Source: Eubacterium sp. (GTDB lineage Bacteria > Bacillota > Clostridia > Eubacteriales > Eubacteriaceae). From it: a DNA stretch of 51,896 nucleotides. Location of the stretch: NCBI GenBank assembly GCA_030524435.1, contig JAUNGS010000007.1:1-51896 (forward strand). Direction: 5' to 3'. The position numbers and the translations under genes were made by a program. The notes beneath the pieces are model-generated. The model searched no databases and had not been told where the DNA came from. It was given only the letters and a program-made list of their open reading frames with translations. The number at the start of each line of letters is the position of its first letter. Positions within the stretch are counted from its first letter, which is position 1. Positions 59 to 3,186 of the stretch are shown piece after piece.

Positions 59-1408
59 ATGAAGTTTTATTTCGCACTCTGGTATGCGAAGGCGATTAAT
101 TTTCTGATCAATCTCGTGAGCAAGGGCAGGGGATCCAACCTGTCCGGTGAAAAGGCTTTGAAGATCGATCCGAGGATGGTAGAACATTTCAAGGGGATTG
201 ACTACGCAAAGGTGATTTTCATCACCGGAACCAACGGCAAATCCTCGACCACCAACCTGGTCACCCATATTTTAAGAAAGAACGGCAAGCGGGTTGTCTC
301 CAATCTGGAGGGCGCCAACCTTCTGGCCGGTATCGCCACCATTTTGGCCAAGGAGGCCAATATGCTCGGCAAGCTGGACACAGACTTCTTCGTCTTTGAG
401 ACGGATGAGCGCTACCTGCCCATTATCTACGATCAGCTGCCGGCGGAAAACCTGCTGATCACCAACCTTCAGAAGGACCAGGTCCAGCGCAACGGCGATC
501 CGGATTTTATCTACAGAAAGCTGGCTTCCTTTATGAATCCCAAGATGCACCTCTATCTGAACAACGAGGAGCCCCGGGCAAAATCCTTCGAGCGCTTTAC
601 GGACCACGTGATCTACTACGGTGTGGAAAAGCACGCCGAATCCTTTGTGAAGGACGAAACCTATCCCACCTCGGCCTGTCCCAAGTGCTATCACAAGGTG
701 GATTTTGAGTACTACAACACCGACAGCGTCGGCCCCTTTGTCTGTGACAACTGCGGCTATTCCAGCGAAACCAAGCCCCACTACCTGGTGGAGGCCGTGG
801 ACTTTGACAACCGCAGCTTCGAGATGGACGACGTGAAATTCAATATGCCCTACGATCTGCCCTTTATGTTCTACAATTACAGCGGCGCCCTGGCGGTGTG
901 CGACGATTTTGCCGACGTCTCCGTGTCCGACGCAGCGGCGGCCTTCGATTCCTTTAAGAACATCGGCGGACGCTTCGAGGTTTTAAAGTACAAAGACAAA
1001 ACCATCAAGTACATGCGCATTAAGCAGGAAAATCCGGATACCCTCCAGAGCACCCTGAACATCATGGCCTCGGACAGTGAAGCTAAGATGGTCTGCTTTG
1101 GTCTGTATCAGGTGGCGGATTTTATTCCCTTCTACACCAACACCTTCTACGCCTTTGACTGTGACTTCAAGCCCTTAACCGAGTCCAACGTCGAGCGCTA
1201 TTTCTGCTTCTCGCCCCATGTGTGCTACGATACGGCCAACCGGCTGATCTACGAGGGCGTGGATCCGTCGATGATCACCACCCTGGAAACCGAGGACATC
1301 GCCACGATTTTTGCGGAAATCGAAAAAGCGGACACCGACAATATCTACCTGATCACCTGGCTTGAAACCTTTAATAAAATGAAGAAATACATCGAGGAGG
1401 GAAAATAG
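59..1408 (+). CDS. murT: MurT-like Mur ligase family protein (lipid II-modifying type)
   Basis: 449 residues, close to the usual MurT length of about 440. The Mur-ligase P-loop ITGTNGKSSTTN lies near residues 54-65. A MurT-type Cys4 zinc ribbon (CPKC about 70 bp before CDNCGY) lies near residues 205-235, and the C-terminal Mur domain ends with a YDTANRLIYEG motif. MurT normally uses ATP to activate the D-Glu alpha-carboxyl of lipid II, and GatD supplies ammonia to give D-isoglutamine. Here several blocks differ from MurT as I remember it: LNNEEP replaces the LNxDDP type, and the NDxxADGxDxSWxWD stretch is not recognisable around residues 345-375. The start is ATG after GAGGAGG. The gatD-like gene begins 1 nt after the stop, so the two are certainly co-expressed. 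The family call is firm; the exact acceptor amine is open because the partner has lost its glutaminase site. Confidence 0.85.
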   Translation: MKFYFALWYAKAINFLINLVSKGRGSNLSGEKALKIDPRMVEHFKGIDYAKVIFITGTNGKSSTTNLVTHILRKNGKRVVSNLEGANLLAGIATILAKEANMLGKLDTDFFVFETDERYLPIIYDQLPAENLLITNLQKDQVQRNGDPDFIYRKLASFMNPKMHLYLNNEEPRAKSFERFTDHVIYYGVEKHAESFVKDETYPTSACPKCYHKVDFEYYNTDSVGPFVCDNCGYSSETKPHYLVEAVDFDNRSFEMDDVKFNMPYDLPFMFYNYSGALAVCDDFADVSVSDAAAAFDSFKNIGGRFEVLKYKDKTIKYMRIKQENPDTLQSTLNIMASDSEAKMVCFGLYQVADFIPFYTNTFYAFDCDFKPLTESNVERYFCFSPHVCYDTANRLIYEGVDPSMITTLETEDIATIFAEIEKADTDNIYLITWLETFNKMKKYIEEGK

Positions 1409-1409
1409 C

Positions 1410-2171
1410 ATGGAACTTAAAATTGGCTGGTTATTTCCAGATTCTCTCTATCTCCACGGCGACCGCGGCAATATTCTGGCCCTGAGACGCATGGCCGAGG
1501 GGCTGGGCTGCAGTGTCACCGTGGAAAAGATCGACTTTACCACCGAGGATTTCACCCCCATGGACTACGATTTTCTGTTCTGCTCTCCGGGGGAAATAGC
1601 GACCTTCACCTCCATTGTAGACTTTTTAAAGCCCTACACCCTGGCGCTAAAGGCCTACATCAAGGCGGGCAGACCCCTTCTGGTCACCGGCACCAGCATT
1701 GGCCTCTGGGGAACGGAGATTATACGTCAGGACGGCAGCGTCCTCAAGGGACTTGAGATCCTCGAGGTCACCACCAGAGAAAACGAGGCGGTCTACGGCG
1801 ACGACCTTTACTACCGCTGCAGCTTAGGCGGTGAGACCATGGAAATCATTGGCAATCAGATTCAGATGGCCGACTTTGAAAGCGCCGAGGAGGAAAGCTT
1901 TGGGGAGCTCATCTACGGCTACGGCAACAGCGGCAAGGACAGAAAAGAGGGCTTCGTGATGGACAATGCGGTGTTCACCAACACCCTGGGGCCTGTGCTG
2001 GTTCAGAACCCCTGGCTGACCAAGGCTTTTCTGAGAATCATTGCCGAAAATCAGGAGACAGCCCTGGAGCTCAGCGCAGTGGACACCTTCCTGGAGGAAA
2101 AATCCTTTGCCACCAAAAAGGACTTTATCCTGCACAAAACCACCTATCTCACAAATTGCAAGCATGACTAA
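1410..2171 (+). CDS. GatD-like class-I glutamine amidotransferase homologue lacking catalytic Cys and His
   Basis: 253 residues, about the length of GatD. It keeps family landmarks: HGDRGNILALRRMAEGLG near residues 16-33 and YGYGNSGKDRKEGF near 169-182. In Staphylococcus aureus GatD, recalled from memory, the nucleophile lies in LTICGGYQFLG and the histidine in TYLHGPILPKN. The equivalent stretches here read LVTGTSIGLWG (residues 91-101) and TNTLGPVLVQN (190-200), so Cys is Gly94 (Ser96 nearby) and His is Leu193. The NHGGRTY substrate region is also replaced. The protein should not hydrolyse glutamine. It probably serves as a structural or regulatory subunit of the adjacent MurT-like ligase. 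The start ATG lies 1 nt after murT; the 3' end overlaps mnmA by 8 nt. There is no frameshift, so this is a maintained gene rather than a decayed one. Confidence 0.8.
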   Translation: MELKIGWLFPDSLYLHGDRGNILALRRMAEGLGCSVTVEKIDFTTEDFTPMDYDFLFCSPGEIATFTSIVDFLKPYTLALKAYIKAGRPLLVTGTSIGLWGTEIIRQDGSVLKGLEILEVTTRENEAVYGDDLYYRCSLGGETMEIIGNQIQMADFESAEEESFGELIYGYGNSGKDRKEGFVMDNAVFTNTLGPVLVQNPWLTKAFLRIIAENQETALELSAVDTFLEEKSFATKKDFILHKTTYLTNCKHD

Positions 2172-3186
2172 GAAAATTGTTTTAGGCTTCAGCGGCGGTG
2201 CGGACAGCACGGCCGCTGCTTTGCTGTTACGGGAAAATCATTATGTGGTGACGGCGGTTACCCTGGATTTTACCGGTGATGCTGAGCTTTTAGACATGGC
2301 GGCGCGGAAGGCAGAGTGCCTGGGCATCGCCCATCGGGTGGTGGACGTCCGCCGTTCTTTTGAGGACAGGGTGGTGACGCCCTTTATCGAGGCCTACCGC
2401 CGGGGAGAGACCCCCAACCCCTGCCTTGTCTGTGACACCCAGGTGAAGCTTGTGGCCCTGGCCGAGGCGGCGGATGCCCTGGGCATCGACAGAATCGCCA
2501 CAGGACACTATCTGAGAGTGGAAAAGGGAGAGGAGGGAATCCGAGTCCTAAAAAGCCCGGCGGTAAGGAAGGATCAGAGCTATTATTTTTACCGGATGCC
2601 CCAGGCCATCCTCAGGCGGCTGGTCGTCCCCCTGGCAGATTTTGAGGATAAGGCGGCGGTGCTGGCTTTTTTAGAAGAGGCGGGCCATCCCTTTGTGAAG
2701 GGTGAGGAGAGCCAGGGAATCTGCTTTGTCAATGGCGACCGGGGTGCCTTTTTAAGGGCGCGCCTCGATCTGCCCCAGGGAGTTTTTGTGGACACCGCAG
2801 GCAGGATTTTGGGCAGTCACGACGGCTTTTACCATTTTACATTGGGGCAGTTTCGGGGAATCAACCTGGATCAGAAATATTATGTAGTAGGTCTGGATCC
2901 TGTGGGCAACCGGGTTATTCTGGGACAGGAGGCCGAGCTTTATAAAAAGCGTATTTCATTGCGGGAGGTGTCCTTTTTAGACGGCGGCATCCCCCAAGGC
3001 CCTCTGCCCGTCACCTTTAGGATCTGCCGCTGGGGCTACGAGCTCAGGGGGATCTACCTGCCCCTTTCCAAGGATTCTGGCTATATCGAGGCCGAGGCGG
3101 CGGTTAGAGCGCCCACGCCGGGACAGGCGGCGGTGTTTTACCGGGGAGATGAGCTTCTGGGCGGCGGCACCATCTGCGGGGCGTGA
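2164..3186 (+). CDS. mnmA: tRNA-specific 2-thiouridylase MnmA
   Basis: 340 residues from the ATG at 2164, slightly shorter than typical MnmA (about 360). It activates U34 of Lys/Glu/Gln tRNAs with ATP and replaces O2 by sulfur from a persulfide relay. The N-terminal PP-loop is GFSGGADSTAA (canonical GxSGGVDSS). The first catalytic Cys is in ETPNPCLVCD near residue 80, the KDQSYYFYRMPQ motif is in the middle, the second Cys is in SQGICFV, and the C-terminal barrel has PGQAAVFY. Its start codon overlaps the end of the gatD-like gene by 8 nt, suggesting translational coupling. The PP-loop changes and shortened body make it a divergent member, and a second mnmA elsewhere would not surprise. The AT-rich cassette begins just after its stop. 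Confidence 0.88.
   Translation: MTKKIVLGFSGGADSTAAALLLRENHYVVTAVTLDFTGDAELLDMAARKAECLGIAHRVVDVRRSFEDRVVTPFIEAYRRGETPNPCLVCDTQVKLVALAEAADALGIDRIATGHYLRVEKGEEGIRVLKSPAVRKDQSYYFYRMPQAILRRLVVPLADFEDKAAVLAFLEEAGHPFVKGEESQGICFVNGDRGAFLRARLDLPQGVFVDTAGRILGSHDGFYHFTLGQFRGINLDQKYYVVGLDPVGNRVILGQEAELYKKRISLREVSFLDGGIPQGPLPVTFRICRWGYELRGIYLPLSKDSGYIEAEAAVRAPTPGQAAVFYRGDELLGGGTICGA

Follow-up and report, generated by a model that had tools for sequence, protein, structure and literature searches.

What does a lipid II isoglutaminyl synthase become once its glutaminase subunit has lost its catalytic residues? This question is raised by two adjoining genes at the start of a 51,896-nucleotide contig from Eubacterium sp. 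(GenBank assembly GCA_030524435.1, contig JAUNGS010000007.1; the whole stretch is hereafter the window), which encode relatives of MurT and GatD, the two subunits of that enzyme. We mark the variant pair with an asterisk (MurT*/GatD*); L and G numbers denote the loci and genomes we compared, and g numbers denote genera of Eubacteriaceae. Our analysis points to MurT*/GatD* as a likely ATP-dependent ligase, predicted to attach a D-diamino acid (D-ornithine or D-lysine, in all probability) at the alpha-carboxyl of D-Glu in the cell wall precursor.

The glutaminase triad is lost across both subunits

We compared the window proteins with MurT/GatD of S. aureus, S. pneumoniae, and S. pyogenes (PDB entries 6gs2, 6h5e, 6fqb, and 9sq9). 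The closest solved proteins are MurT for the murT* product (E 2e-37) and GatD for the gatD* product (E 4e-17), both subunits of lipid II isoglutaminyl synthase. AlphaFold2 models of MurT* (predicted local distance difference test [pLDDT] 89.8) and GatD* (pLDDT 94.6) have as their closest solved folds MurT (Z 35, root-mean-square deviation [rmsd] 2.7 over 386 residues) and S. aureus GatD (Z 31.9, rmsd 2.1 over 243 residues), respectively, and no non-MurT amino-acid ligase lay nearer to MurT* than MurT in the fold search. MurT* has the Mur-ligase fold together with a GTNGKT-type ATP site and Cys4 zinc ribbon, and GatD* has the class I glutaminase fold of GatD; by model and motifs, MurT* keeps both its fold and its ATP site. 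Its TGTNGK matches the S. aureus GTNGKT motif that binds AMPPNP (PMC6113224). Both proteins nevertheless miss the curated NCBIfam cut-offs (MurT, 148.8 bits versus 800; GatD, 80.5 versus 400).

The residues that GatD would need for catalysis are missing. Alignment with S. aureus GatD places Gly94 at the nucleophile Cys94, Leu193 at the catalytic His189, and NQIQMA at ENHGGR. The third member of the glutaminase triad resides in the partner subunit, as MurT Asp349 (PMC6113224), and its counterpart in MurT*, aligned without gaps to a common DxDF anchor, is Asn361. The triad GatD Cys94, GatD His189, MurT Asp349 therefore reads Gly, Leu, Asn in the window. In the S. aureus enzyme, C94G abolishes amidation and D349N severely reduces it in vitro (PMC6113224). 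As aligned, the window pair carries the same two changes as these laboratory mutants, together with the loss of the histidine and, judging by the mutants, it is almost certainly not a glutaminase-driven amidase.

MurT* is further rewritten at two motifs. FRDQLDRYGE becomes QKDQVQRNGD in the channel loop, corresponding to MurT loop 135–143, which has been reported to line the ammonia channel (PMC6085368), and KNPAGxNQ becomes ENPDTLQ at the start of the C-terminal domain. A preceding sequence-only reading of the window had described an intact gatD-like gene with Gly94 and Leu193 at the Cys and His positions and loss of the Asn-His-Gly-Gly-Arg region, translationally tied to a MurT-like ligase changed in several blocks. 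Each of these points is borne out, the gene boundaries exactly; the loss of Asp349 and the identity of the rewritten MurT* motifs go beyond it.

The variant pair forms one clade and is usually the only pair in its genome

In a profile search across 391 genomes of the class the scores fell into two distinct sets, with variants scoring at least 220 bits and canonical proteins no more than 136 bits. Our scan of named genomes yielded 80 loci with 85 variant GatDs, all of which have lost Cys94 (78 to Gly, 5 to Ser, 2 to Ala) and all of which have lost His189. Gly94, Asp132, Gln150-Ile151, and Leu193 are conserved in at least 90% of variant GatDs. A tree built from MurT and GatD with the motif columns removed united 37 variant pairs in one clade with support 100, and dN/dS (the ratio of nonsynonymous to synonymous substitution rates) within the genus was about 0.05. 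Because the variants form a single clade under purifying selection with both folds intact, and have 85 relatives, decay or sequencing error is ruled out as the origin of these changes.

A single MurT was found in the window genome (81% complete) and in complete congeners. Likewise, Eubacterium callanderi, E. barkeri, E. aggregans, and Acetobacterium have no MurT/GatD pair besides the variant, and named genomes of Emergencia, Hornefia, Aminicella, E. minutum, E. pyruvativorans, and Anaerofustis hold a single MurT, again of the variant type. Canonical pairs alone occur in Eubacteriaceae genera g6 and g7 and in genome G037 of g8. The exceptions to the single-pair rule are G036 and possibly L131 and L154. 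We also considered a hidden second canonical pair, and none was found in the window genome, at its 81% completeness, or in complete relatives.

Mogibacterium and related assemblies (L113:8598-13074, L114, L116, L117, L118) show a separate arrangement, with two tandem variant MurT/GatD pairs. In the second GatD of each tandem, Ser and Val occupy the Cys and His positions, and an ATP-grasp ligase comes next; this second pair clusters with the additional pair found in G036.

MurE type changes with the variant pair

Group-B walls, described in the 1960s–70s, are cross-linked via a diamino acid on D-Glu and not via residue 3 of the stem peptide. The walls of Acetobacterium and E. barkeri belong to this group, and the cross-bridge of E. 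limosum is D-Lys/D-Orn. To our knowledge no enzyme that attaches the group-B bridge has been described, and none is named in the open literature we searched.

In the variant Eubacteriaceae that we read, the MurE motif for residue 3 is DNPA, which is Lys/Orn-like, the exceptions being divergent MurEs of genera g3 and g4; the consensus quoted for Lys recognition by MurE is D(D,N)P(N,A) (PMC6113224). All canonical Eubacteriaceae, which lack the racemase described below, and G036 have DNSR, with the arginine of the diaminopimelate (DAP) type. Going by these motifs, MurE switches from DAP-type to Lys/Orn-type in step with the variant pair. Murein type B2alpha (group B) is listed for Eubacterium (PMC11382707), the only entry that turned up in an open literature search on group-B walls, Eubacterium limosum, and D-ornithine. 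Variant-only organisms thus include a genus with a reported group-B wall, represented by E. callanderi, E. barkeri, and E. aggregans. Separately, a second MurE homologue is present in Acetobacterium at L293 (G013) and at L257 (G001), where the residue-3 motifs are different again (DNPG and DNCR).

An ornithine racemase accompanies the variant pair

The gene adjoining gatD* encodes a racemase in 19 of the 80 loci. Its sole NCBIfam match, over its full length, is ornithine racemase Orr (racem_Orr, NF040742; E 3e-130), and an Anaerofustis copy passes the curated cut-off for that family. Six of the 80 loci place an arginase (NCBIfam arginase, E 7e-61) next to the pair, in the order murT*-gatD*-orr-arginase at L119, L120, L129, L131, and L143. 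The racemase gene is mostly downstream in the same direction and convergent in three loci (L137, L150, L153); since it occurs in both orientations, the gatD* neighborhood is not one frozen block. At L152 the order is murE-murT*-gatD*-orr, and at L154, in a Propionibacteriaceae assembly, a penicillin-binding-protein fragment lies upstream of the pair (murE and the fragment were named by eye). The murT*-gatD*-orr genes of this actinobacterial assembly (L154:1159-4501) nest in the Bacillota clade, which likely reflects horizontal transfer, provided that the contig is not contamination.

Orr also co-occurs with the variant at the genome level: it was found in 28 of 29 variant versus none of 7 canonical Eubacteriaceae genomes (Fisher 1e-6), in 14 of 15 variant versus 12 of 176 other GatD-positive genomes of the class sample (Fisher 2e-13), and in 22 of 24 named variant genomes, counts that are phylogenetically non-independent and uncorrected for kinship (the class-sample variants span five families), which is the first of several points that weigh against the proposed ligase. 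Two of those 24 named genomes have no racemase. In Eubacterium and Acetobacterium the racemase gene lies elsewhere in the genome, adjoining leuS; an extra copy in Anaerovoracaceae adjoins AMP-binding ligases and lysS, and so may serve another consumer of D-amino acids. Lastly, G036 (Eubacteriaceae; L036:7163-9370 and L035) combines a variant pair with a canonical pair and a DAP-type MurE, has no ornithine racemase, and is a case outside our explanation. The window genome does encode a source of a D-diamino acid, its Orr lying on contig 50.

Orr is familiar from ornithine fermenters, in which it feeds D-ornithine aminomutase, and the gatD* neighbor matches this family throughout. Unlike those fermenters, most variant genomes examined have no such mutase: 17 of 22 lack it, and these include E. 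callanderi, E. barkeri, Acetobacterium, and the window genome, at its 81% completeness. For most variant genomes this rules out ornithine fermentation as the only explanation of the racemase. Among the five mutase-bearing genomes, four have one Orr on the mutase contig, within ~15 kilobases of the mutase, and at least one further Orr elsewhere.

In five Anaerovoracaceae loci (L296:4765-9437, L299, L300, L301, L302), a second ornithine-racemase homologue stands beside AMP-binding ligases, some of them double (1,080–1,194 amino acids), and in four of the five it is also adjoined by greA and lysS. These loci possibly represent another D-amino-acid pathway.

A predicted ligase for the group-B cross-bridge

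How might the pair work? We propose that MurT*/GatD* is a neofunctionalized relative of lipid II isoglutaminyl synthase. By analogy with Mur ligases, MurT* would use ATP to convert the alpha-carboxyl of D-Glu into an acyl phosphate. With the triad lost, GatD* would no longer hydrolyze glutamine and would feed no ammonia to this intermediate; an amino acid would act as the nucleophile instead, D-ornithine or D-lysine being the likeliest. The racemase that travels with the pair could make the D-amino acid from L-ornithine, for which arginase is a possible source, and since the pair is associated with D-ornithine-making genes, it probably attaches that amino acid. The product would be a D-diamino acid branch on D-Glu, the carrier of the 2-4 cross-link in group-B (B2) peptidoglycan. 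GatD* itself is probably retained to support the structure or to position the substrate, given that S. aureus MurT, which can use ammonia directly at pH 8.5, requires GatD even when ammonia is supplied (PMC6085368).

This same behavior of the S. aureus enzyme (PMC6085368), along with the retention of both subunit folds, would also suit a pair that still makes D-isoglutamine from ammonia, either free or released by another enzyme, and in which GatD* plays a structural role. Such an amidase seems improbable to us because it leaves too much unexplained: the racemase and arginase link, the rewritten ammonia-channel loop and C-terminal motifs of MurT*, the MurE type switch, and the reported group-B wall of Eubacterium.

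If an amino acid is added to the alpha-carboxyl, it might be a different one, such as glycine, L-Ser, L-Lys, or D-Asp, with the racemase serving another step. Group-B1 walls begin with residues of this sort, and Cys-less GatD types occur without the racemase in Actinomycetes and Bacilli, so the family may take several nucleophiles. The adjacency of ornithine racemase and its co-occurrence with the pair in the window's own clade tell against this, and we give it only about as much credence as continued amidation. A role outside peptidoglycan, as a ligase for another D-amino-acid conjugate or as a regulator, is the least plausible option and very unlikely: it could accommodate the extra divergent variant pairs that G036 and Mogibacterium hold beside another pair and the racemase genes adjoining AMP-binding ligases in Anaerovoracaceae, but the variant is the sole MurT/GatD pair in most genomes, MurE type changes along with it, and murE (L152) and penicillin-binding-protein (L154) genes neighbor it.

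The D-diamino acid ligase thus remains our favored explanation. The sequence-only reading had suggested that the pair ligates either ammonia or an amino acid onto the D-Glu carboxyl, with a link to group-B walls, and had named a second intact, amidating MurT/GatD pair together with a lack of correlation with group-B walls as evidence that would speak against it. Our results lend this suggestion circumstantial support: neither the window genome nor its complete relatives yielded a second pair, and the Cys/His loss tracks with Eubacterium, E. barkeri, and Acetobacterium (B2alpha being the type listed for Eubacterium, PMC11382707). Between its two branches we favor the amino acid over ammonia because of the genomic link to ornithine racemase and arginase.

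Comparison with known systems

MurT*/GatD* shares with lipid II isoglutaminyl synthase a two-gene operon, the Mur-ligase fold, the ATP motif, the Cys4 zinc ribbon, and the GatD fold. It differs in lacking the equivalents of GatD Cys94 and His189 and MurT Asp349, in its rewritten channel loop and C-terminal motifs, and in its tie to ornithine racemase. In its predicted chemistry MurT* resembles MurE, the UDP-MurNAc-tripeptide synthetase, which uses ATP to couple a diamino acid to D-Glu of a wall precursor, in its case at the gamma-carboxyl. The ENPDTLQ of MurT* resembles HTPDALE at the corresponding place in the MurE sequence, and the MurT Asp349 loop lies near where MurE holds its amino acid; both features fit a change of nucleophile and prove nothing. 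MurE differs in working without a GatD partner and in using a soluble precursor, and significant sequence similarity between the two is confined to the ATP motif.

After MurT, the nearest Mur-ligase structures are archaeal pseudomurein ligases such as pMurC (6vr7, Z 24.9). These differ from MurT*/GatD* in being archaeal, in lacking a GatD-like partner, and in building a different polymer. Some archaea have MurT-like proteins only, with no GatD (PMC11915815), and MurT relatives can therefore exist without a glutaminase partner.

The pair provides a concrete candidate for the missing group-B bridge enzyme, with a predicted substrate and a gene to supply it. CRISPR interference exists for E. callanderi (PMC13340025), making this species a genetically tractable host for the candidate. 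The pair also illustrates that annotation pipelines can call such genes "glutamine amidotransferase" or isoglutaminyl synthase despite the lost chemistry.

Gene layout and neighboring features

The features of the locus are collected in Table 1. One base separates the murT* stop from the gatD* start, and gatD* is preceded by its own ribosome-binding site (GGAGG). The mnmA-type gene that follows is probably co-transcribed with gatD* and is also found 3' of gatD* in Acetobacterium and E. callanderi. We considered it as a functional partner and set it aside as an operon hitch-hiker with no evident functional link.

Table 1. Coordinates of the murT*-gatD* locus and of its diagnostic residues in the window
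Feature	Position	Strand	Remark
murT*	59..1408	+	Mur-ligase (MurT-like) subunit, 449 amino acids; predicted ATP-dependent D-Glu alpha-carboxyl ligase
TGTNGK nucleotide-binding motif	224..241	+	kept; (near-)invariant in 56 relatives
NLQKDQVQRNGDPD	464..505	+	replaces canonical N(I/V)FRDQLDRYGE, loop reported to line the ammonia channel
Cys4 zinc-ribbon insertion (C207, C210, C229, C232)	677..754	+	kept; invariant in 56 relatives
KQENPDTLQ	1022..1048	+	replaces canonical KNPAGxNQ at start of C-terminal domain; resembles MurE DYAHTPDALE
Asn361 codon	1139..1141	+	replaces MurT Asp349, the third glutaminase triad residue
gatD*	1410..2171	+	GatD-like subunit without glutaminase residues, 253 amino acids
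Gly94 codon	1689..1691	+	replaces nucleophile Cys94
G130-D131-D132 codons	1797..1805	+	conserved in the variant family only; D132 invariant in 58 relatives
QIQM (150–153) codons	1857..1868	+	replaces ENHGGR
Leu193 codon	1986..1988	+	replaces catalytic His189
mnmA-type tRNA thiolase gene	2164..3186	+	8-base overlap with gatD* end; named by NCBIfam MnmA

Other GatD proteins without the nucleophile

Two further Cys-less kinds of GatD emerged from the comparison. A sister group in Bacilli and Clostridia carries TGNSxELFG, with His changed to Ile or Leu; this TGNSxELFG ... TYLIGP kind occurs in Clostridia and small-genome Bacilli (L060, L062, L226, L230, L231, L233–L237, L242, L243, L252). An independent group (AVGxGWELL or AVGGSAELLG) sits inside the canonical actinobacterial branch. 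Cys94 is lost in Actinomycetes at L178, L181, L183, L184, L190, L177, and L186 (guanine-plus-cytosine content 64–72%), with His kept or changed to Gln, an altered MurT Asp349 loop, and rpoD, parE, or alr adjoining; these might conceivably represent Microbacteriaceae with group-B walls. Orr was not found in the searched genomes of either kind, which may therefore use other amino acids.

A broader and more speculative idea, to which we give somewhat less than an even chance, is that MurT/GatD serves as a general platform for modifying the D-Glu alpha-carboxyl. The glutaminase would have been lost at least twice independently, in the large Bacillota clade and in the actinobacterial clade by rpoD, parE, and alr, giving rise to amino-acid ligases that differ in their nucleophile and jointly make group-B cross-bridges; in this family GatD* would be the amino-acid-handling subunit.

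A canonical murT-gatD pair was also observed on a metal-resistance plasmid of Leifsonia shinshuensis (L225:4727-7676), together with an M15 (VanY-like) peptidase gene; it is the one Microbacteriaceae match from the plasmid collections searched, and its GatD, being canonical, provides no instance of the Cys loss in that family.
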